NCBI GenBank assembly: GCA_015488555.1
Contig: WFNO01000086.1
Coordinates: forward strand, 64,467 to 123,336
Source: Gammaproteobacteria bacterium
GTDB taxonomy: Bacteria > Pseudomonadota > Gammaproteobacteria > SZUA-140
DNA length: 58,870 bases
Reading direction: 5' to 3'
This document shows, piece by piece, positions 3,413 to 31,713 of the stretch (position 1 is the stretch's first letter; each line of letters starts with the position of its first letter). The notes beneath the pieces were generated by a model that saw only the letters and a program-made list of their open reading frames with translations, was not told where the DNA came from and did not search any database. The position numbers and the translations under genes were made by a program.

Positions 3413-4528
3413 TCAATAGATGAAGATCGCCTCGAAGGCCACGGAGGTCTGGGAATCCTGAGGCTTCCCTTCGTAGTCCATGAACACGTCCTCGTCCGAG
3501 GTGTCGCGACGGACTTCACCCCGAAATTCCACGTGCTCGGAAGGCATGTAGGCCAAGGTCACGGTGCCTTCCTGCAAGGTCTGCTTGGTGCCGGTGCGGA
3601 ACCCATCGTCGTCGCTGAAGGACTCGAGGCGCAAGGCTATGCGCCACATGGGCGAAAACTTGTAATTCACATAAGCAGCATACCCGCTCCAGCTGGCATC
3701 CTTGCCTCCCGCGGCACCGTTCTCCTGGGTGCCGAAGTCGGCATTGAAGAGCAGGGACAGGGCCTCGGTGACATCCCAGCCCGTAACGATGTCGATGAGG
3801 GTACGTGATTCATCCTTGCCATTGGCTTCCTCGTCCCCTATCATGCCCTGGACGTTGAAGAACCAGTTCTCGGCAGGGGCCAGGCTGATCTGGGCCTCCA
3901 GAGACTTGGAAGCGTTGTCGTCCACCAGATTGTCCCAGCCGTTGTTGACGCCCACAGTGAGGCCGATGGCGTCGCTCAAAGGAAAACTCACCCGCACGCC
4001 CGTGTGGGTAAAGGGAATGGCATTGAAAAACAACAGGGAACGCGAGAAGTTCCAGTTGTCCTTGCTCTCGATGACCTCGGCGCCTTGTAGAGTGGCGAAC
4101 TTGCCGAACAGCCACTGTGCGGAACCGCTGGCGTAGCTCACGTAGGCCTGCTGGATGTCGAATTCGTCGCTGCCACCGGAACCCGCCGCGGCCGTGACAT
4201 TGGCATCCGAACCGGCGTTGAGCACCACGGCGCCGCCCCAACCCTGCTCGGGCAGCTTGCTCAGTGACAGGCCGATCATGTTGACATTGAAGGAATTGGC
4301 GTCAGTGTCGAAGGCCCGAAACATGGGATCGGTCCCCAGATCGGTATAGGTGTACGAGGTATCCACGTAGCCGCTGATCTCGACACCCGATGCGCCCAAC
4401 ACCTCCCCCAGCGTGGGTACGTCCGCGGCCTGAGCGGCGCTGGAAATCATCCCGGCGACCATCCCGGCACCCATCAGGGCGGAAGTGGCCCACGCCAGGG
4501 CACGCGGCTTGTTGTTGTTCAGTTTCAT
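3413..4528 (-). CDS. Outer-membrane beta-barrel porin, bbp2/OmpL-like
   Basis: This 371-residue protein has a Sec signal peptide ending AAQAA-D near residue 30. The mature part has alternating hydrophobic and polar strands rich in aromatic residues and ends in a terminal aromatic residue (AIFIY), as outer-membrane barrels do. Segments such as ISGYVDTSYTY, FDIQQAYVSY and WLFGKFATLQGAEV resemble the putative beta-barrel porin-2 family. The ATG at 4528 follows a GAGAGGAG ribosome site; longer in-frame starts would put untranslated leader into the protein. Upstream is an unusual sigma54-type promoter with two NtrC-like sites (separate entries), which suggests uptake of a nitrogen compound. The solute itself cannot be read from sequence. 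Confidence 0.85.
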   Translation of the reverse strand: MKLNNNKPRALAWATSALMGAGMVAGMISSAAQAADVPTLGEVLGASGVEISGYVDTSYTYTDLGTDPMFRAFDTDANSFNVNMIGLSLSKLPEQGWGGAVVLNAGSDANVTAAAGSGGSDEFDIQQAYVSYASGSAQWLFGKFATLQGAEVIESKDNWNFSRSLLFFNAIPFTHTGVRVSFPLSDAIGLTVGVNNGWDNLVDDNASKSLEAQISLAPAENWFFNVQGMIGDEEANGKDESRTLIDIVTGWDVTEALSLLFNADFGTQENGAAGGKDASWSGYAAYVNYKFSPMWRIALRLESFSDDDGFRTGTKQTLQEGTVTLAYMPSEHVEFRGEVRRDTSDEDVFMDYEGKPQDSQTSVAFEAIFIY

Positions 4529-4634
4529 GGGTTCAAACTCCTCTCTCTTGCGAATCGAAAATGATGATGTCTTTCGTCGATGCGTCACTCCGCCTCGTGC
4601 CGGCCTGGCCGGTGCACGAGGGTCATCCCTGGCG

Positions 4635-4650
4635 AGCAGGATTTGTGCCA
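4635..4650 (-). promoter_or_regulatory. Sigma54 (-24/-12) promoter of the porin gene
   Basis: On the minus strand bases 4650-4635 read TGGCACAAATCCTGCT. The invariant GG and GC are present with the required 10-base spacing, and only the first T of the TTGC element is replaced by C. The start of transcription would be near 4625, giving a ~97-base leader before the ATG at 4528. The paired enhancer-like sites upstream strengthen the call. Confidence 0.7.
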
Positions 4651-4670
4651 CCCAAAAAATATAAATAGAA

Positions 4671-4682
4671 TCAAACGTTTGA
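4671..4682. promoter_or_regulatory. 12-bp perfect palindrome between enhancer sites and porin promoter
   Basis: TCAAACGTTTGA is a perfect palindrome centred about 50 bases upstream of the expected start of transcription. This is the position where IHF or a second regulator often acts at sigma54 promoters, but the sequence is not an IHF site. It is a possible operator; the cognate protein is unknown. Confidence 0.35.
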
Positions 4683-4714
4683 ATACGATTTGATCGAAAA
4701 CACCCTTCTCGCCC

Positions 4715-4729
4715 GCACCATTTTGGTGA
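4715..4729. promoter_or_regulatory. NtrC-like enhancer site 1
   Basis: GCACCATTTTGGTGA matches the NtrC consensus, whose half sites are TGCACC and GGTGCA around a central A/T run. It lies about 100 bases upstream of the predicted sigma54 start. It may form a pair with the site at 4756-4770. Confidence 0.65.
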
Positions 4730-4755
4730 ATACAGATCAACGCTGCCATCACATC

Positions 4756-4770
4756 GCACCATTACGGTGC
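4756..4770. promoter_or_regulatory. NtrC-like enhancer site 2
   Basis: GCACCATTACGGTGC is a near-perfect palindrome of the NtrC type. Its centre is 41 bases from that of the first site, almost exactly four helical turns, so two activator dimers would sit on the same DNA face. This spacing is typical for cooperative enhancers. Confidence 0.65.
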
Positions 4771-4859
4771 ACTCTTTCGTGGATGGTTTCGGCCGGATCA
4801 ACCCATGATTGCCGCGCAGGTGCCCAATCCCTGACCCGACCTTGGGTCACTGAACCTGC

Positions 4860-4888
4860 AAAAAAGAAGGGCGCCGGAGCGCCCTTCT
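4860..4888 (-). terminator. Rho-independent terminator of the peroxidase gene
   Basis: A 10-base stem with arms AGAAGGGCGC (4865-4874) and GCGCCCTTCT (4879-4888) closes a 4-base loop. On the minus strand it is followed by five T. It lies just after the cytochrome c peroxidase stop at 4917. Confidence 0.85.
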
Positions 4889-4916
4889 CGCAGGTAGCCG
4901 TGGAAACGGCTTCCGG

Positions 4917-5969
4917 TCACTGATCCCCCACCACGCTCATATTGGCCGTCTGCGGCAACACGGGCATGGTCTGCGGCGGGATCTCACCCGTCAGGCTGTT
5001 GAGGAAGGCGACGATGGCGCGCACCTCGTCCGGCTTCAGGTCCTTGTTGAGCTGGGTCTTGGCCATGACCCGCACGGCCTCGTCCAGGGTCTTCACCGAG
5101 CCATTGTGGAAATAGGGTGCGGTCAAGGCCACGTTGCGCCAGGTGGGCACCCGCCACATGTACTTGTCCTCCTCCTTGCCGGTGACGCTGTGCAGGCCGG
5201 TATCGCTCATGAGATCGTATTTCTTCACGTATTCGTTGTTGGTGAAAGTGGGGAATTTCTGGAAGAAGCCCTGCCCCACCGGCAGATTGGCCGGACCGGC
5301 GAAATTGGGCCCGGTGTGGCAGGCCGTGCAACCCACCGACTGCACCAATTCCATGCCCCGCAAGGCCTCTTCGCTCATGGCGGACTTGTCACCACGCATG
5401 TAACGGTCGAAGGGGCTGTTGGGGGTGATGAGGGTCCGTTCGTAGGCGGCGATGGCCTTGGCGATGTTGTCGTAGGTCAGACCGTTCTCCCCGAAGACCT
5501 CGGCGAACTTGGCCACGTATCCTGGGATCTTGCGCAGCCGCTCCAGCACCGCCTCTTCCGACGGCATGCCCATCTCGATGGGATTGAGGATGGGACCCTT
5601 GGCCTGATCCTCCAGGGTGGCCGCACGTCCATCCCAGAACTGGGCGCTGAGAAAGGCGGCGTTGAACACCGTGGGGGCCGAACGCCCTCCTTTCTGTCCC
5701 TTCACCCCCACCGACACCGGCCGATTGTCGGTGCCGTTGGTCATGACGTTGTGGCAGGAATTGCACGACACCGTACCGTCGATGGACAGGCGCGGATCGA
5801 AGAACAACATCTTGCCCAGCTCGATCTTGGCCGCCGACATGGGGTTGTCGGCCGGCACCGGCGGCTGGGCCGGCAGGGGCTCCAGGGCGCGGGCCGGACC
5901 GGCCTGCAGCACGCCGGCCGCAGCCAATACGGCCGCTGCCGCATGTACGGAAATGTTCGCGAATCTCAT
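4917..5969 (-). CDS. Diheme cytochrome c peroxidase (CCP/MauG family), periplasmic
   Basis: The 350-residue preprotein has a Sec signal peptide ending near PARA (about residue 28). Two CxxCH heme c sites are visible: C69-C72-H73 (CNSCH) and C214-C217-H218 (CTACH), the pattern and spacing of bacterial diheme peroxidases that reduce H2O2 with electrons from cytochrome c. The segments FWDGRAATLEDQA and VPTWRNVALTAPYFHNG are family hallmarks. The ATG at 5969 is preceded by GAGGAGG; the upstream in-frame ATG at 6047 would spoil the signal peptide. The gene appears monocistronic, with a terminator behind and a long leader with inverted repeats in front. Peroxide detoxification in the periplasm is the likely role; a MauG-like modifying role cannot be excluded. 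Confidence 0.92.
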   Translation of the reverse strand: MRFANISVHAAAAVLAAAGVLQAGPARALEPLPAQPPVPADNPMSAAKIELGKMLFFDPRLSIDGTVSCNSCHNVMTNGTDNRPVSVGVKGQKGGRSAPTVFNAAFLSAQFWDGRAATLEDQAKGPILNPIEMGMPSEEAVLERLRKIPGYVAKFAEVFGENGLTYDNIAKAIAAYERTLITPNSPFDRYMRGDKSAMSEEALRGMELVQSVGCTACHTGPNFAGPANLPVGQGFFQKFPTFTNNEYVKKYDLMSDTGLHSVTGKEEDKYMWRVPTWRNVALTAPYFHNGSVKTLDEAVRVMAKTQLNKDLKPDEVRAIVAFLNSLTGEIPPQTMPVLPQTANMSVVGDQ

Positions 5970-6009
5970 GACTTGCCTCCTCTTCTCGTTGGAAACCGTG
6001 CGTGATTTC

Positions 6010-10983: not shown

Positions 10984-13266
10984 TCAGGCCGCCCGGCCTT
11001 GCAGTTCGGCGCGCAAGCGCCTAGCGGCGGCCACCATGTTGGCCAGGGCGGCCTCCACCTCGGGCCAGGCCCGGGTCTTGAGCCCGCAGTCCGGATTGAC
11101 CCACAGGCGCTCGGCGGGAATACAGGCCAGCGCCCGGCGCAGCAGCGCCTCGATCTCGTCCACCGAGGGAACGTTGGGCGAGTGGATGTCGTAGACGCCG
11201 GGGCCGATCTCGTTGGGATATTCGAAGTCGCGGAAGGCCTCCAGCAGGTTCATGCGCGAGCGGGCGCTCTCGATGGTCACCACGTCGGCGTCCATGGCGG
11301 CGATGGCCTCGATGATGTCGTTGAACTCGGAATAGCACATGTGGGTGTGGATCTGGGTCTCGTCGCGCACTGCGCAAGCGGCCACGCGGAAGGCCTGCAC
11401 CGCCCACTCCAGATAGGCCTGCCAGTGCCGGCGGCGCAGCGGCAGTCCCTCGCGCAGGGCCGCCTCGTCGATCTGGATGACGGCGGCCCCGGCGGCCTCC
11501 AGGTCCCGCACCTCGTCGCGCAAGGCCAGGGCCAGTTGCAGGCAGGTGGCGGCGCGCGGCTGATCGTCGCGCACGAACGACCAGTTGAGCAGGGTCACGG
11601 GCCCGGTGAGCATGCCCTTCACCGGCTTTTCAGTGAGGGACTGGGCATAGCGAAACCAGTCCACGGTCATGGGGGCGGGGCGCTCCACGTCCCCGTAGAG
11701 GATGGGCGGTTTGACGCAACGCGAACCATAGGACTGCACCCAGCCGTGGCGGGTGAAGGCGAAGCCTTCCAGGCGTTCCCCGAAATACTCCACCATGTCG
11801 CTGCGCTCCGCCTCGCCGTGTACCAGCACGTCCAGGCCCAGGGCCTCCTGCCGGCGGATGGCGGTCTCGATCTCGGCGCGGATCCGCGCCCGGTACTCGG
11901 CCTCGCTCAATTCACCGCTCCGATGGCGGCGCCGGACGGCGCGGATCTCGGCCGTCTGCGGGAAGGAGCCGATGGTGGTGGTGGGCAGCAAGGGTAGATC
12001 GAGTCGCGCCCGTTGTTTGGCGCGGCGCTGTGCATAGGGGCTCGCGCGCCGCGCCCAATCTTCACTCACCGCCTCCAGGCGACCGCGCACCGAGAGCCGG
12101 TACAGGCGCGGCGAACGGCGCCGGCGCGCCCAGGCGTCGCGCGCAGCAGCCAGGGCCTCGGACACCACCGCGGGGCCTTCGTCCAGGGCCCGTTTGAGCA
12201 GGGCCAATTCCTCCAGCTTCTGCACCGCAAACGCCAGCCACTCCCGGATCTCGCCGTCCAACTCCGTTTCCAAGGTCAAATCCACCGGCACGTGCAGCAG
12301 GGAACAGGAAGGCGCCAGCCACAGGCGTTCGCCTAGGCGCTCGCGCACGGGGGCCAGGCGCTCCAGTACGGCGTCCAAGGGCGTGCGCCAGACGTTGCGC
12401 CCGTCCACCACACCCAGGGACAACACCTTGTAGGGCGGCAGGCGATCCAGGGCGGGAGCGAGCTGTTCCGGGGCGCGCACCAGATCCAGGTGCAAGCCGG
12501 CCACCGGCAGGCGGCAGGCCAGCTCCAGATGATCCTCCAGCCCTCCGAAATAGGTGGCCAGGAGCAGCTTCACCCGCCGCGACTGCAAGCGATGATAGGC
12601 CGCTTCGAAGGCCTGGCACCAGGCGGGCGGCAGGTCCAACACCAGGATGGGCTCGTCCACCTGCACCCATTCCACCCCCCGCGCCGCCAGCCCGTCCAGC
12701 AATTCACCATAGACCGGCAACAATTCGTCCAGCAATTGCAGGCGATCCAGTGCCGGTGTCATGGCCTTGCCCAGCCAGAGATAGGTGAGCGGGCCGGGCA
12801 GCACCGCCTTGACCGGATGACCCAGGGCGCGCGCCTCCTCCACCTCCTGGAAGATGCGCGGCGCGCGCAGGCGAAAGCGCTGTCCGGCTTCGAATTCCGG
12901 AACGATGTAGTGGTAGTTGGTATCGAACCATTTGGTCATCTCGCAGGCCGCCGCCGGCTCGGCGCCGGGGGCCCGTCCCCGGGCCATGGTGAAATAGGTG
13001 ACCAGGTCATCTTCACGGCGGCAGCGCGCGGGCACCACGTCCAGGGCCAGGCTCAGGTCCAACACGTGGTCGTAGAAGGAGAAATCCCCCACCGTGACGT
13101 AATCCAAGGCGGCCCGCTGCAGGGCCCAATGCCGGGCGCGCAACATTCGCCCGCAGGCCTCCAACGCGCCGGCGTCCTGTTCGCCCCGCCAATAGGCCTC
13201 CAGGGCCTGCTTCAACTCCCGCTGCGCCCCGATCCGCGGAAAGCCGAGAATGTGCGTAGTGGTCAT
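10984..13266 (-). CDS. metE: Cobalamin-independent methionine synthase
   Basis: MetE (760 residues) transfers the methyl group of 5-methyltetrahydropteroyl-triglutamate to homocysteine. The protein starts [16 protein letters not shown] and has the N-terminal KFDTNYHY-like segment ([13 protein letters not shown]). The C-terminal catalytic barrel carries the zinc ligands H642 and C644 ([11 protein letters not shown]) and C727 (NPDCGLKTR), close to the Escherichia coli numbering. The ATG at 13266 follows an AGGAG site; the longer frame from 13311 is leader. The LysR-type gene metR is divergent, with a MetR-type site between them, so activation by MetR with homocysteine is expected. Confidence 0.97.
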
Positions 13267-13317
13267 GTTCGTCTCCTGTCGTGGTTGACGGGATCCAGTA
13301 TCGGCCGGCATGGATAT

Positions 13318-13376: not shown

Positions 13377-14309
13377 GTGTTTCTGGAACTCCGCCATCTC
13401 CGCAGCCTGCTGGCCATCCACGAGACGGGCAATCTGTCCCGCGCCGCCCAGCGCCTGCACCTCACCCAGTCGGCCCTGACCCACCAGGTCAAGGCCCTGG
13501 AACACTACTTCGGCACCCCCCTCTTCTACCGCCGGCGCCGCCCCCTGCAGCTCACTCCCGCCGGCCACCGCTTGCTGGAACTGGCCCGCGCGGTATTGCC
13601 GCAAGTGGAAAGCACGGAGCGGGCCCTGCGCGCGCTGGCGGAAGGACGCAGCGGGCGCCTGTACCTCACCATCGAATGTCACGCCTGTTTCGAATGGCTG
13701 TTGCCGCTGTTGGATCACTATCGCGAGGCCTGCCCCGAGGTGGAGGTGGACATTCGCCTGGGCATGAGCTTCGATCCCCTGCCGGCGCTGTTGCGCGGCG
13801 ATATCGATCTGGTGATCACCTCCGATCCCACAGACATGGCGGACGTGGTCTTCGAGCGACTCTTCGCCTACGAGGCGCGGCTGGTGGTTCCCGCCGGCCA
13901 CCGCCTGGCGCGCCGCCGTCACGCGGCACCGGCCGACCTGGCCGCGGAGACCCTCATCACCTATCCCGTGGCGCGCCGGCGCCTGGACGTCTTCACCCGC
14001 TTCCTCGAACCCGCCGGCGTGGAACCGGCGGCCGTACGCCAGGTGGAACTCACCGCCATGATCCTGCAACTGGTGGCGGCGGGACGCGGCGTGGCGGTCC
14101 TGCCGGACTGGGTCCTGCAGGCCGCGCGCCCGCCCGGGCTGCGCAGCCTGTCCCTGGGGCGCGAGGGCCTGGCGGGCACCCTCTATGCCGCGGTCCGCCG
14201 GCAGGAACGCTCCGCCCCCTACGTGGATCGCTTCATCCACATGGCCCGCCGCCACGCGGAGGCCCGCGTCCGAAAGGCTCGTACCGCCGGGACGCGGAAA
14301 AAACGCTAG
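13377..14309 (+). CDS. metR: LysR-type regulator of methionine genes
   Basis: The 310-residue protein has an N-terminal winged helix-turn-helix (residues 1-60, with NLSRAAQRLHLTQSALTHQVKALE) and an effector-binding domain. Features of MetR are the ECHACFEWLLPLL segment and the GMSFDPLPALLRGDIDLVITSD segment. It is divergent from metE, the usual arrangement of a LysR regulator and its target. The start is a GTG at 13377 immediately before FLELRHLRSL, the normal N-terminus of this family; no ATG is available upstream in frame. Homocysteine would be the co-inducer by analogy. Confidence 0.93.
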   Translation: MFLELRHLRSLLAIHETGNLSRAAQRLHLTQSALTHQVKALEHYFGTPLFYRRRRPLQLTPAGHRLLELARAVLPQVESTERALRALAEGRSGRLYLTIECHACFEWLLPLLDHYREACPEVEVDIRLGMSFDPLPALLRGDIDLVITSDPTDMADVVFERLFAYEARLVVPAGHRLARRRHAAPADLAAETLITYPVARRRLDVFTRFLEPAGVEPAAVRQVELTAMILQLVAAGRGVAVLPDWVLQAARPPGLRSLSLGREGLAGTLYAAVRRQERSAPYVDRFIHMARRHAEARVRKARTAGTRKKR

Positions 14310-14317
14310 ACCGACCC

Positions 14318-14346
14318 TTGCCATACGCCCAACGATGGGCTATCTT
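14318..14346 (+). promoter_or_regulatory. Sigma70 promoter for the riboswitch-nrdAB transcript
   Basis: TTGCCA (14318-14323) and TATCTT (14341-14346) are spaced by 17 bases, directly before the first conserved riboswitch helix. The predicted transcript begins near 14353, leaving a leader of about 545 bases before the nrdA ATG. Confidence 0.6.
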
Positions 14347-14352
14347 GGGTTC

Positions 14353-14605
14353 CGCTCTGGTACGGACCACAACATCTTGTGTCCGTGACAACGGGGAACC
14401 CGGTGAGAATCCGGGACTGTCGCGCAGCGGTATAGGGGAACGAAGGCCACAGGCAGTGCCCCGATGGGTCCGGCCACCGCCGAGGCCCATCGAGAATGCG
14501 AGGCACTGCAGGCACTGTCCCGCAAGGGATGGGAAGCCGTGGCCGTAGGCGGCGGGGAGATGTGCGACCCGCCCTGCCCCTGAGTCCGAACACCCGCCGG
14601 AGCGG
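14353..14605 (+). promoter_or_regulatory. Cobalamin (adenosylcobalamin) riboswitch
   Basis: The RNA has the conserved core of cobalamin riboswitches in order: GGGAACCCGGTGAGAATCC at about 14394, then GGGACTGTCGCGCAGCGGTA, a peripheral arm, CACTGTCCC with GGGATGGGAAG near 14512-14534, and a B12 box GTCCGAACACCCGCC at 14584-14598. The box differs from the usual ACCTGCC by one base. The element precedes nrdA. Cobalamin riboswitches are established regulators of class I reductase genes in genomes that also carry a B12-dependent class II reductase. B12 binding is expected to lower nrdAB expression. The control step (terminator or ribosome-site masking) was not resolved. Confidence 0.9.
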
Positions 14606-14715
14606 GCCGCCCGCATTGGAGTGCCGTGACCGAGAAGGTATCGGCGGCGGGCGGCCGGACTGCCCGGGCCTCGCGTCAAGGCGAAGGGCAGAGGTGGTTT
14701 CGCATCCGCGCCGGT

Positions 14716-27284: not shown

Positions 27285-28100
27285 TCAACGCCGCCCGCTG
27301 CGCAGATGGCGCAGGGTGAAGATGCCCGCGTCGATGGGCACGTCGAAGCGCACCTCGAGCATCTCGATCACGGTGGCGTTGCCGGGCTCGTCCACGGGAC
27401 GCATCTCCCAGCGGGTGGGCAGGCGGCGCCCGTCCATCTCCCGCACTTCGCTGAAAGTGAGCACCTTGACCAGGCGCCCCCGCTCGTCGTAGTAGGAGAG
27501 CCGCAGGGGGATGAGATCGTCACGGCGCACTTCGTAGACCAGCTTGCCCCACACCACCGCAGCCTCCGGCTTGGGCAGGGATTCGATGACATAGACCACC
27601 ACTCCGTCGCGTTCCTCCTCCGCGAGCACGGTGTGGGTGTAATCGTGCACCATGCTGCTCTCCTTCACCAGGTCGTCGTTGGTGAAGTGGGAGCCCATCC
27701 AGGGCTGCAGCATCATGGAAGGGGGGATCTTGACGATGCGTTCCACCTTGGGCAGGTAATTCCACATCTCGCTGCCGATGCGCAGGGAACCGATGCCCGC
27801 TTCCTTGGGGGGCGCGAGAATGCGGATGAAGGTCTTCTCGGGACGATCCATCCACACCCGTAATTCCAGGGTGCGCCGCCAATGGGGCGTGGTGATGCGC
27901 ATGCGATAGCGGCCCACGCTGGTCTTGCCCCACAACAGGTTCTCCACCCGCCGCACGATCTCCTGGCCGGAGAGGGACCCAGAGGGTGACTCGGAGAGCG
28001 AGACGGGCGGTGCGGCGGCGAGCGCGGCAGCCGGCGTGAACGACAGGGACCAGGCGAGCAGCAGGCCTGCGGCGATCGCCGGACGCGGGCGGGTCACCAT
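27285..28100 (-). CDS. LolA-like outer membrane lipoprotein-sorting protein
   Basis: The 271-residue periplasmic protein has a Sec signal peptide (hydrophobic stretch AAGLLLAWSLSFTPAAALA) and a LolA-like beta fold. Recognisable segments are the YRMRITTPHWRRTLELRVWM strands, LRIGSEMWNYLPKVERIVKIPP, and MLQPWMGSHFTNDDLVKES, typical of the 'outer membrane lipoprotein-sorting protein' group, which is distinct from housekeeping LolA. Such proteins carry a hydrophobic cargo across the periplasm. Immediately downstream are an ABC ATPase, FtsX-like permeases and an outer-membrane barrel, giving a candidate complete route from inner to outer membrane. Confidence 0.88.
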   Translation of the reverse strand: MVTRPRPAIAAGLLLAWSLSFTPAAALAAAPPVSLSESPSGSLSGQEIVRRVENLLWGKTSVGRYRMRITTPHWRRTLELRVWMDRPEKTFIRILAPPKEAGIGSLRIGSEMWNYLPKVERIVKIPPSMMLQPWMGSHFTNDDLVKESSMVHDYTHTVLAEEERDGVVVYVIESLPKPEAAVVWGKLVYEVRRDDLIPLRLSYYDERGRLVKVLTFSEVREMDGRRLPTRWEMRPVDEPGNATVIEMLEVRFDVPIDAGIFTLRHLRSGRR

Positions 28101-28142: not shown

Positions 28143-28469
28143 TCACAACTCCTCCGGTACCGCCGCAGCCCGGGAGCGGATCCGGTACAGTTTCAACACC
28201 GGCAGGATAGCCACGATCCCATCGCCTTCGCAACCGGTGTGGGCCGCGCCCATGATGGCCTCGGCGATGGGCTCGGCCTTGTCCTCACCGGTGAAGATCT
28301 CGATGCGCGCGTGGCTGGTGAGCCAGTCCTTGGTGTAGGTGTCGGCGTACTCGCCGTAGCCCTTGACCTGGGTCACGCTGATACCGGAGACGCCCATGTC
28401 CTGGAGCGTGCGCTCCACGGACTTGAGGGCGTCCTTGCGGATGATGGCGGTCACCTTGCGCAGTTCCAT
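28143..28469 (-). CDS. PII-like nitrogen-regulator family protein next to the Cus pump (PII-NG type)
   Basis: The 108-residue protein has the PII fold: MELRKVTAIIRKDALKSVE at the start, VSGISVTQVKGYGEY leading into the T-loop, and the C-terminal GEDKAEPIAEAIM and GCEGDGIVAILPV segments. The T-loop (about residues 37-55) is short and has no canonical Tyr-uridylylation sequence, unlike GlnB/GlnK. A GAGGAGAAC site precedes the ATG at 28469. PII-like proteins beside RND metal pumps are known as the PII-NG subgroup; their ligand is not settled. Here it lies 73 bases after cusA, downstream of a tandem repeat, and likely senses metal or nucleotide state. Confidence 0.85.
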   Translation of the reverse strand: MELRKVTAIIRKDALKSVERTLQDMGVSGISVTQVKGYGEYADTYTKDWLTSHARIEIFTGEDKAEPIAEAIMGAAHTGCEGDGIVAILPVLKLYRIRSRAAAVPEEL

Positions 28470-28497
28470 ATCGTGTTCTCCTCTGCAAGACAATTTA

Positions 28498-28551
28498 GAT
28501 CCGGGATCAGATCTGGGATCAGATCCGGAATCAGATCTGGGATCAGATCTG
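28498..28551. repeat. Tandem repeat, 12 bp x 4.5, across the cusA stop codon
   Basis: Units GATCCGGGATCA, GATCTGGGATCA, GATCCGGAATCA and GATCTGGGATCA occupy 28498-28545, and a partial unit reaches into the last codons of cusA. Because the unit is 12 bases, the cusA frame meets TGA at each repeat (28545, 28533, 28521, 28509), then TAA at 28497. The array separates cusA from the PII-like gene. Confidence 0.92.
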
Positions 28552-31500
28552 GCGGCGGCGCTCCTGCCATTGCAGGATGAGGCCGTAGATCACCGGCAAC
28601 ACCACCAGGGACAACAAGGTGGTGGTGATCATGCCGCCTACCATGGGGGCGGCGATGCGCTGCATCACCTCGGAACCGGTGCCGCCGCCCAGCATGATGG
28701 GGATCAGACCAGCGATCACCGCGGTGGCGGTCATGGTGATGGGACGCACGCGTTCCGAGGTGCCCTGGAATACCGCCTGACTGATGTCCGCGCTGCTCAG
28801 GCGCACCCGCTCGACGCTCAGGCCCTCGCTCCGGGCCCGCTCATGACGCAGGTTCTGGATGGCCTCGTTGATGAAAGTGAGCACCAGCACCCCGATCTCG
28901 GCCGCCACCCCGGCCAGGGCGATGAAGCCCACCGCCACCGCCACCGATAGGTTGAAGCCGTAGAAATACACCAGCCAGATCCCGCCGATCAGGGCAAAGG
29001 GGATGGACAACATCACCACCAGCGGTGCCGTCACGTTGCGGAAATTGAAATAGAGCAGCAGGAAGATCATCAACAGCGTCGCCGGAATGACGATGCGCAG
29101 GCGCTGGGCCGCCCGTTCCATGAACTCGAACTGCCCCGACCAGGTCACGGTGTAGCCCGGCGGGATCTCCACCTGCTCCGCCAACACTTGCTTGGCCTTG
29201 GCCACGAAACCGCCGATGTCCGAGGTCTTGATGTCCACGTAGATCCAGGCGTTGGGACGCGCATCTTCGCTCTTGATGACCGGCGCACCGCGGCGCAGGG
29301 TCAGGGTGGCCACCTGCGACAGGGGGATCTGGGCGCCGGTGGGAGTGGGGATGAGCACCCGGCGCAGTTCCTCCGGACTGTCGCGCAACTCCCGCGGGTA
29401 GCGCAGGTTCACCGGATAGCGCTCCAGGCCCTCCACGGTGTAGGTGATGTTCATGCCGCCCACCGCCGACATGATCACGTCCTGCACGTCGCCCACCGTG
29501 AGCCCGTAGCGGGCGGCGGCCGCCCGGTCGATGTCGAAGTCCAGGAAATAACCGCCCACGGCGCGGTCACCGAAGGCCGACAAGGTCTCGGGAAGGGTCT
29601 TCATGGCCCGTTCGATGGCCGTGGACAGTTCCTGCAACACGTTGAGATCCGGGCCGCTGACCTTGATGCCGATGGGGGTCTTGATGCCCGTGGACAACAT
29701 GTCGATACGGGTCTTGATGGGCATGGTCCAGGCATTGGCCAGACCGGGGAAACGAATGGCCTGGTCCATCTCCGCCATCAATTCCTTCGTGGTCTTGTCC
29801 GGATCGGGCCATTGGTCGCGCGGCTTCAGGCGGATGATGGTCTCGATCATGGACAGCGGCGCCGAGTCGGTGGCGGTCTCCGCCCGCCCCACCTTGCCGA
29901 ACACCGTCTCCACCTCGGGGAAGGTGCGCAGGATCTTGTCGGTCTGCTGCAACAACTCCTTGGCCTTGGTGATGGAGATGCCCGGGAAGGTGGTGGGCAT
30001 GTAGAGGATGTCGCCTTCGTCCAGGGGCGGCATGAATTCGCTGCCCAGCTTGCTCAGAGGATACACCGTGGCCCCCAGCAGGAGCAGCGCCAGCGTAATG
30101 GTGATCATCCGCCAGCGCATGGTGAGGCGCAACACCGGGGAATGCAACCAGTGGAGAATGCGATTCACCGGATTCCTGGCTTCGGGCAGGATCTTGCCGC
30201 GGATGAACAGGCCCATGAGCACCGGCACCAGGGTCACCGCGAGCAGGGCCGCCGCGGCCATGGAATAGGTGCTGGTAAAGGCCAGGGGGCTGAACAGGCG
30301 GCCTTCCTGTCCCTGGAGCGTGAAAATGGCCACGTAGGACACGGTGATGATGAGCAGGGAGAAGAACAGGGCCGGACCCACTTCCTTGGCGGCCTCGGCG
30401 ATGGCCGCCCAGCGCTGCATGGGGGTCAGGGGGCCGCCCGCCGCCTTGCCCGCCCGCTCCAGATGCTTGTGGGCGTTCTCGATGAGCACGATGGCGCCAT
30501 CCACCATGGCACCGATGGTGATGGCGATTCCTCCCAGGGACATGATGTTGGCGTTGATGCCCTGCCAGCGCATGGCGATAAAGGCGATCAGGACACCCAC
30601 CGGCAAGGCGACGATGGCCACCAAGGCCGAACGCGCGTGCAACAGGAAGATCATGCAGATGATGCTGACAACGATGAACTCCTCGATCAGCTTGTCGCGC
30701 AGGTTGGCCACGGCGCGTTCGATGAGATCGCCGCGGTCGTAGACCGTCACGATCTCCACCCCTTCCGGCAGTCCCGCCTTCAGCTCCTCCAGCTTGGCGC
30801 GTACCCCGCGGATGGTGGCGAGGGCGTTCTCGCCGAAACGCATCACCACCACGCCGCCGACCACCTCACCTTCGCCATTGAGTTCCGCCACGCCGCGGCG
30901 CAACTCCGGTCCCAGCTTGACGGTGGCCACGTCCTCCAGCCGGATGGGCGTGCCGTGGGCGTCCACACCCACCGGGATCACCTTCAGGTCCTCGATGGAC
31001 TGGATGTAGCCGCGCCCGCGCACCATGTATTCGGTCTCGGACATCTCGATGAGCCGCCCGCCCACGTCGTTGTTGGAACGCTTGATAGCCATGCGCACCT
31101 TGGACAAGGGGATGTTGTAGGCCAGCAGGGCATTGGGATCCACTTCCACCTGGTATTGCTTCACATAACCCCCCACCGAGGCCACCTCGGCCACGCCCGG
31201 CACCGTCTGCAGGGGATAGCGCAGATACCAGTCCTGGATGGAACGCAGCTGTGCCAGGTCGTGACGGCCGCTGCGGTCCACCAGCGCGTACTCGTAGATC
31301 CAACCCACACCGGTGGCATCCGGTCCCAGGGTCGGTGTCACACCCGCCGGCAGGCGGCCACTGACATAATTGAGGGATTCCAGCACCCGCGAGCGGGCCC
31401 AGTACAGGTCAGTGCCATCCTCGAAGATGATGTAGACAAAGGACAGGCCGAAGAAGGAATAACCGCGCACCACCTTGGCATAGGGTACCGCCAGCATGGC

Positions 31501-31713
31501 CGTGGTGAGGGGATAGGTCACTTGGTCTTCCACCACCTGCGGCGCCTGCCCCGGGTATTCCGTGAACACGATCACCTGGACGTCGGAGAGATCGGGGATG
31601 GCGTCCAGAGGCATGGTGCGCACGGCCCACAGCCCGGCGGCCACCACCAGGGCGGTGACGATGAGTACCAGAAAACGGTTGCGCAGAGAGGCGTCGATGA
31701 TGGCCTTAATCAT
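28543..31713 (-). CDS. cusA: Heavy-metal RND efflux pump, Cu(I)/Ag(I) type
   Basis: The 1056-residue inner-membrane transporter uses the proton gradient to expel metal. Twelve helices are expected; the TM4 motif GAMVDGAIVLIENAHKH is present. The methionine metal triad of CusA is conserved as M572 (LYMPTT), M622 (PLSMIET) and M672 (RIDMLSTG), which marks Cu(I)/Ag(I) and argues against the zinc/cobalt CzcA type. The ATG at 31713 overlaps the cusB stop by 8 bases. The stop lies inside a 12-bp tandem repeat. With cusB and cusC it forms a complete tripartite pump through both membranes. Confidence 0.96.
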   Translation of the reverse strand: MIKAIIDASLRNRFLVLIVTALVVAAGLWAVRTMPLDAIPDLSDVQVIVFTEYPGQAPQVVEDQVTYPLTTAMLAVPYAKVVRGYSFFGLSFVYIIFEDGTDLYWARSRVLESLNYVSGRLPAGVTPTLGPDATGVGWIYEYALVDRSGRHDLAQLRSIQDWYLRYPLQTVPGVAEVASVGGYVKQYQVEVDPNALLAYNIPLSKVRMAIKRSNNDVGGRLIEMSETEYMVRGRGYIQSIEDLKVIPVGVDAHGTPIRLEDVATVKLGPELRRGVAELNGEGEVVGGVVVMRFGENALATIRGVRAKLEELKAGLPEGVEIVTVYDRGDLIERAVANLRDKLIEEFIVVSIICMIFLLHARSALVAIVALPVGVLIAFIAMRWQGINANIMSLGGIAITIGAMVDGAIVLIENAHKHLERAGKAAGGPLTPMQRWAAIAEAAKEVGPALFFSLLIITVSYVAIFTLQGQEGRLFSPLAFTSTYSMAAAALLAVTLVPVLMGLFIRGKILPEARNPVNRILHWLHSPVLRLTMRWRMITITLALLLLGATVYPLSKLGSEFMPPLDEGDILYMPTTFPGISITKAKELLQQTDKILRTFPEVETVFGKVGRAETATDSAPLSMIETIIRLKPRDQWPDPDKTTKELMAEMDQAIRFPGLANAWTMPIKTRIDMLSTGIKTPIGIKVSGPDLNVLQELSTAIERAMKTLPETLSAFGDRAVGGYFLDFDIDRAAAARYGLTVGDVQDVIMSAVGGMNITYTVEGLERYPVNLRYPRELRDSPEELRRVLIPTPTGAQIPLSQVATLTLRRGAPVIKSEDARPNAWIYVDIKTSDIGGFVAKAKQVLAEQVEIPPGYTVTWSGQFEFMERAAQRLRIVIPATLLMIFLLLYFNFRNVTAPLVVMLSIPFALIGGIWLVYFYGFNLSVAVAVGFIALAGVAAEIGVLVLTFINEAIQNLRHERARSEGLSVERVRLSSADISQAVFQGTSERVRPITMTATAVIAGLIPIMLGGGTGSEVMQRIAAPMVGGMITTTLLSLVVLPVIYGLILQWQERRRQI

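Follow-up and report, generated by a model that had tools for sequence, protein, structure and literature searches.

A BBP2 porin with a predicted NtrC/sigma-54 promoter and its relatives in porin-glnK-amtB operons

The porin gene and its upstream region

The window, a stretch of 58,870 nucleotides from a gammaproteobacterial contig, carries on its minus strand a gene for an outer-membrane porin of the BBP2 family together with the upstream features listed here.

3413..4528, minus strand: BBP2 (beta-barrel porin-2) outer-membrane porin, 371 aa with a signal peptide, predicted 16-stranded barrel
4544-4538, minus strand: Shine-Dalgarno-like AGAGGAG, read from the sequence, ahead of the porin ATG at 4528
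4650-4635, minus strand: sigma-54 -24/-12 element TGGCACAAATCCTGCT, read from the sequence and conserved in orthologues
4651-4713, minus strand: AT-rich tract between enhancer and promoter, 65% AT
4730-4714, minus strand: proximal NtrC-type 17-mer TTCACCAAAATGGTGCG, centre at about -98
4771-4755, minus strand: distal NtrC-type 17-mer TGCACCGTAATGGTGCG, centre at about -139
4889-4861, minus strand: GC-rich hairpin with a T run, terminator-like, read from the sequence

The porin matched Pfam PF07642 over profile positions 2-337 of 339 (E 8.5e-81, 272 bits against a gathering threshold of 26.2). BBP2 was the only Pfam family found on it, and the window genome holds this one BBP2 gene. No NCBIfam family was found for the porin, no relative was recovered from viral contigs with the porin alignment, and the search of solved structures gave no convincing sequence relative (best E 0.076). 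The AlphaFold2 model, computed from an alignment of 15 relatives, has 16 strands (mean pLDDT 71.7, pTM 0.70), and its best structural matches were the 16-stranded porins OprP/OprO, DcaP, PorB and OmpF. As the identities to these proteins are only 6-17%, the matches show the fold and not the substrate. Across Pseudomonadota and Omnitrophota, segment 146-177 is by far the most conserved part of the protein, with a mean column identity of 0.87 vs 0.59 over the barrel; in the model it lies between strands 5 and 6 and is the constriction loop L3 of this fold, the part likely to set selectivity. The predicted barrel is acidic overall (net -30).

The first-pass annotation had placed a sigma-54 element with exact GG-N10-GC spacing before the porin, and two NtrC-type palindromes with centres 41 bases apart about 100-140 bases upstream. 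All of these were found on the minus strand where they had been placed, the sigma-54 element with the exact spacing and with 10 of the 11 specified positions of TGGCAC-N5-TTGCW matched. For the palindromes we used the NtrC consensus form of paired TGCACC-N5-GGTGCA sites lying about 100-140 bp upstream with near-integral helical spacing, and each 17-mer agreed with the consensus TGCACCANNNTGGTGCA at 12 of 14 specified positions and differed at 2. With the first T of TGGCAC set to -26, transcription of the porin would start at about 4624 and leave a leader of about 96 bases; the centres of the two sites, 41 bp apart, then fall at about -98 and -139. The 40 bases adjoining the promoter are 75% AT, vs 65% GC for the window overall, and this AT-rich tract probably eases DNA looping.

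The porin gene seems to be transcribed on its own, since a terminator-like hairpin stands upstream and the next recognised gene on the same strand, a DUF4382 gene, lies about 1 kb downstream. The hairpin at 4861-4889, which appears to end the upstream peroxidase gene, was not among the matches listed by the consensus terminator scan. The peroxidase, a di-haem cytochrome c peroxidase (CCP_MauG, 4917-5972, minus strand), is encoded directly upstream of the porin beyond this hairpin, and no sign of co-regulation of the two genes was found. Elsewhere in the window, a cobalamin riboswitch (Rfam RF00174, 63.4 bits; 14341-14615, plus strand) lies downstream of an apparent LysR-type regulator gene (13377-14309, plus strand), to which an apparent metE (10984-13311, minus strand) is divergent. 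Besides, a divergent PII protein (P-II, E 1.8e-15; 28143-28493, minus strand), the sole PII in the window, is encoded directly after a gene for an AcrB-type RND efflux pump (28543-31713, minus strand) and before a LolA-like gene (27285-28100, minus strand), and resembles PII proteins of the kind associated with metal efflux pumps.

Linkage of orthologous porins to glnK and amtB

Orthologues were drawn from a scan of named genomes and from sampled genomes. Most of them stand at the head of a porin-glnK-amtB operon: by Pfam and tblastn, glnK (P-II) and then amtB come after the porin at L027, L067, L068, L044, L128, L069, L070, L071, L131 and L132, as glnK and amtB also do at the more distant L073, L137 and L138. 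The L027 operon is from Thiohalobacter, and its porin is 68% identical to that of the window. In Omnitrophota the order is porin-amtB-glnK (L032, L035-L040). A 112-aa ORF after the porin at L077 had been read as PII, which proved wrong. At another locus (L080, 7491-8750), a distant BBP2 porin is followed by genes for the urea ABC transporter components UrtB and UrtD.

In the window and in genome G001, glnK and amtB are not directly downstream of the porin; glnK-amtB is on another contig, and no remnants of either gene were found near the window porin. At L027, L069 and L070 a divergent gene of the ComM/YifB type (Mg-chelatase family) is found upstream of the porin operon, and in the window's own genome a gene of this type is divergent beside glnK-amtB, with no porin between. 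The AmtB of the window's genus (L088 8095-9372, G000:C66) is about 30% identical to the AmtB of the porin operons, and the original AmtB partner of the porin seems to have been replaced in this genus.

In the porin tree, the window porin and that of L028, both solitary and from the window's genus, are sister to the operon-borne L027 and to L029, and the solitary porin of L030 is sister to another operon group; L029 is cut by a contig end and some forks of the tree are modestly supported. As the tree places solitary porins beside operon-borne ones, the arrangement is most simply explained if the porin has left its operon at least twice, together with a copy of its promoter. The ancestral unit would have been porin-glnK-amtB, from which the window porin would derive, and in the window's genus the porin would have moved out and kept its own promoter copy, so that it may still be co-regulated with the glnK-amtB encoded elsewhere. 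The solitary porin of L030 (4944-6134) and its promoter are flanked by an rlpA-like gene (lytic-transglycolase/SPOR) on one side and by a dacA-like gene for a D-Ala-D-Ala carboxypeptidase on the other.

Conservation of the predicted promoter and presence of its regulators

The composite of the sigma-54 element and two NtrC-type sites was present in ten gammaproteobacterial upstream regions, the window included, ahead of porins with identities to the window's down to 34%. Across these orthologues the proximal site is 78-81 bases upstream of the sigma-54 element (91 in L071) and the distal site 31-33 or 41 bases beyond the proximal one; all four members of the window clade (window, L027, L028 and L029) have distances of 80 and 41. 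Every orthologue has an AT-rich tract ahead of its promoter (68-93% AT in the last 40 bases), which suits DNA looping. The first-pass annotation had read the window promoter as an NtrC/sigma-54 nitrogen-starvation promoter and had proposed a comparison of upstream regions in relatives, in which absence of the elements would speak against it. The element and both palindromes are kept upstream of the orthologues, and the reading is supported by this conservation. Its remark that a bbp2-type porin is an unusual NtrC target gives way to the opposite, such control apparently being the rule in the gammaproteobacterial clade of this porin.

In 834 kb of fetched DNA, a set of overlapping loci mostly chosen around BBP2 porins and glnK/amtB, composite scores of 28 or more occurred only at BBP2 porins or glnK/amtB, with one exception (L078). 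BBP2 porins remotely related to that of the window also have the NtrC/sigma-54 composite upstream at L081, L082 and L084, where no glnK-amtB adjoins the porin in the stretches examined. Sigma-54-like and NtrC-like sites lie upstream of the BBP2 gene of L058, the same gene as that of L080. Nitrogen control may, as the upstream sites suggest, be wider within the BBP2 family.

Taken singly, elements this good should turn up by chance in a stretch of such length: the -24/-12 pattern with up to 2 mismatches gave 40 matches in the window vs 33 expected, and the NtrC-like pattern with up to 3 mismatches gave 3 vs 3.9 expected, the two best NtrC matches of the whole window being the porin promoter pair. 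Yet their combination is far beyond chance, since the composite score was reached in none of 1,500 dinucleotide shuffles, both for the window promoter and for each of the nine orthologous ones. Exact patterns fail to show uniqueness, since the controls match more often: in the window's own genome the strict composite pattern gave 3 matches vs 4 for the reversed control, and the two-half-site composite pattern gave 2 vs 4 for its control, so the scored composite is the better measure. The degenerate NtrC 15-mer alone, with 182 matches genome-wide, was set aside as uninformative. A chance resemblance without promoter function is hardly conceivable when the shuffles fail in each of ten genomes, the spacing is near-fixed and the composite is conserved at different genomic sites, in lineages whose porins are less than 50% identical.

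The window genome encodes the regulators that such a promoter would need, namely NtrC (TIGR01818, 747 bits vs the equivalog cut-off of 558.6) and RpoN (one Sigma54_DBD gene, E 6.5e-73). In the promoter of its own glnK, a sigma-54 element lies at -101, with a pair of NtrC-like sites at -210 and -168 whose spacing is 42 bp. As three further full-length NtrC-like sigma-54 activators are encoded in the genome, the porin promoter could in principle answer to an enhancer-binding protein other than NtrC, but we regard this as very unlikely: each site matches the NtrC consensus at 12 of 14 positions, similar sites recur at the genome's own glnK-amtB promoter, and the orthologous operons hold classic NtrC targets. 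Control of the porin by NtrC and sigma-54 is therefore considered very likely on the evidence of sequence and conservation.

Proposed role of the porin and comparison with known systems

When nitrogen is short, phosphorylated NtrC bound at paired sites loops to RNA polymerase-sigma54. At the window promoter, where NtrC binding and activation are predicted, scarce ammonium would place phosphorylated NtrC on the palindromes centred at about -98 and -139, and contact with RNA polymerase-sigma54 at the -24/-12 element via DNA looping would turn the porin on. The porin would be made together with GlnK and AmtB; NH4+ would cross the outer membrane most likely via the porin and the inner membrane via AmtB, and with plentiful nitrogen AmtB would be closed by GlnK. 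The best overall explanation of the locus, and one that we hold to be probable, is a nitrogen-starvation porin driven by NtrC and sigma-54, most likely passing ammonium and stemming from a porin-glnK-amtB unit.

As regards the cargo, the first-pass annotation had guessed at an amide, urea, an amino acid or nitrate. This guess has been revised to ammonium, as the orthologues share operons with glnK and amtB; since these partners, in two phyla, are an ammonium transporter and its regulator, ammonium appears the likeliest substrate. A role of the porin in ammonium uptake is accordingly likely, though with some reserve. Several observations count against the overall explanation: the AmtB of the window's genus is of a different type, the original partner apparently being gone; genome G170 has a BBP2 gene 33% identical and no Amt was found there; the operon member L132 has the sigma-54 element and no clear NtrC site; and the Omnitrophota homologues share the operon with sigma-54/NtrC sites mostly absent. 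That the porin is selective for ammonium in particular is rather less likely than not. Equally tentative is the wider proposal that porins of this BBP2 clade serve as dedicated ammonium channels, in which loop 146-177 would act as the selectivity filter; they would supply the outer-membrane partner that AmtB/GlnK has so far lacked, in a unit conserved between phyla. Selectivity is usually weak in porins, and general ones let ammonium through, so a dedicated channel need not be ammonium-specific.

The porin might instead serve another nitrogen compound (urea, short amides, amino acids or nitrate) under NtrC control, in keeping with the many nitrogen-scavenging systems that NtrC governs and with the distant BBP2 proteins, about 25% identical (L080), that adjoin the urea-transporter genes urtB and urtD. 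This is unlikely, as the genes linked to the close clade in two phyla are glnK-amtB, with none for urea, amides or nitrate, and the likely selectivity loop is highly conserved across the glnK-amtB operons. It is also possible, and less easily set aside, that the porin is non-selective and merely raises the permeability of the outer membrane in nitrogen starvation. In the prediction it folds like ordinary 16-stranded porins, ranging from the anion-selective OprP to the general OmpF, and the net -30 of the barrel favours cations, though acidity of this kind is often seen in salt-adapted bacteria as well. Against non-selectivity, loop 146-177 is strongly conserved across phyla and the porin is closely tied to amtB, both of which suggest that its role is specific.

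Ammonium uptake has been studied almost only at the inner membrane, with AmtB. That a porin is encoded with glnK-amtB in one operon, under shared and predicted NtrC control, in several lineages suggests outer-membrane passage as a step that may limit uptake when ammonium is low. A family of porins listed without a known substrate thereby gains a testable function, and the window porin would offer an example of a gene that is out of its operon but still in the regulon through a kept promoter.

The best structural alignment to the porin model was given by the phosphate porins OprP/OprO (Z ~25), which, as is proposed for the window porin, are starvation-induced 16-stranded porins for the limiting nutrient. 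They differ from it in sequence (14-17% identity) and in belonging to the phosphate, not the nitrogen, regulon. The literature search for an ammonium porin returned no paper. The parts described here are of known kinds, while nothing in the literature searched was found to describe an operon of Pseudomonadota and Omnitrophota with the porin in first place, the conserved NtrC/sigma-54 promoter ahead of it, or the escape of the porin with that promoter.

The BBP2 family is entered as TC 1.B.66 with its substrate listed as unknown (PMC4827864). The Kuenenia gene KSMBR1_3177, which has its Pfam family in common with the window porin, is reported to be highly induced under ammonium limitation, and its authors consider that the product may permit higher ammonium influx (PMC7438415). 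Unlike for the window porin, no link to NtrC/sigma-54 is reported in the consulted passages of the two papers (PMC4827864, PMC7438415). Among known systems the locus is close to the NtrC/sigma-54 glnK-amtB operon of Proteobacteria. The nearest described layout is the NtrC-dependent nlmA-glnK-amtB operon of Herbaspirillum seropedicae (PMC3023670), in which a membrane-associated gene comes first, followed by glnK and amtB, and expression takes place under nitrogen limitation. Compared by layout and regulation, the envelope gene here is a BBP2 porin, which in the window is solitary with its own promoter copy. A PII-Amt-OmpL linkage has been described in marine viruses and is said to occur only in Flavobacteriales (PMC8115048); there too an OmpL-like porin stands beside glnK and amtB. 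The porin is last in that arrangement (glnK-amtB-ompL), whereas here it comes first, in Pseudomonadota and Omnitrophota, and the Pseudomonadota operons are set apart by their predicted NtrC/sigma-54 control.
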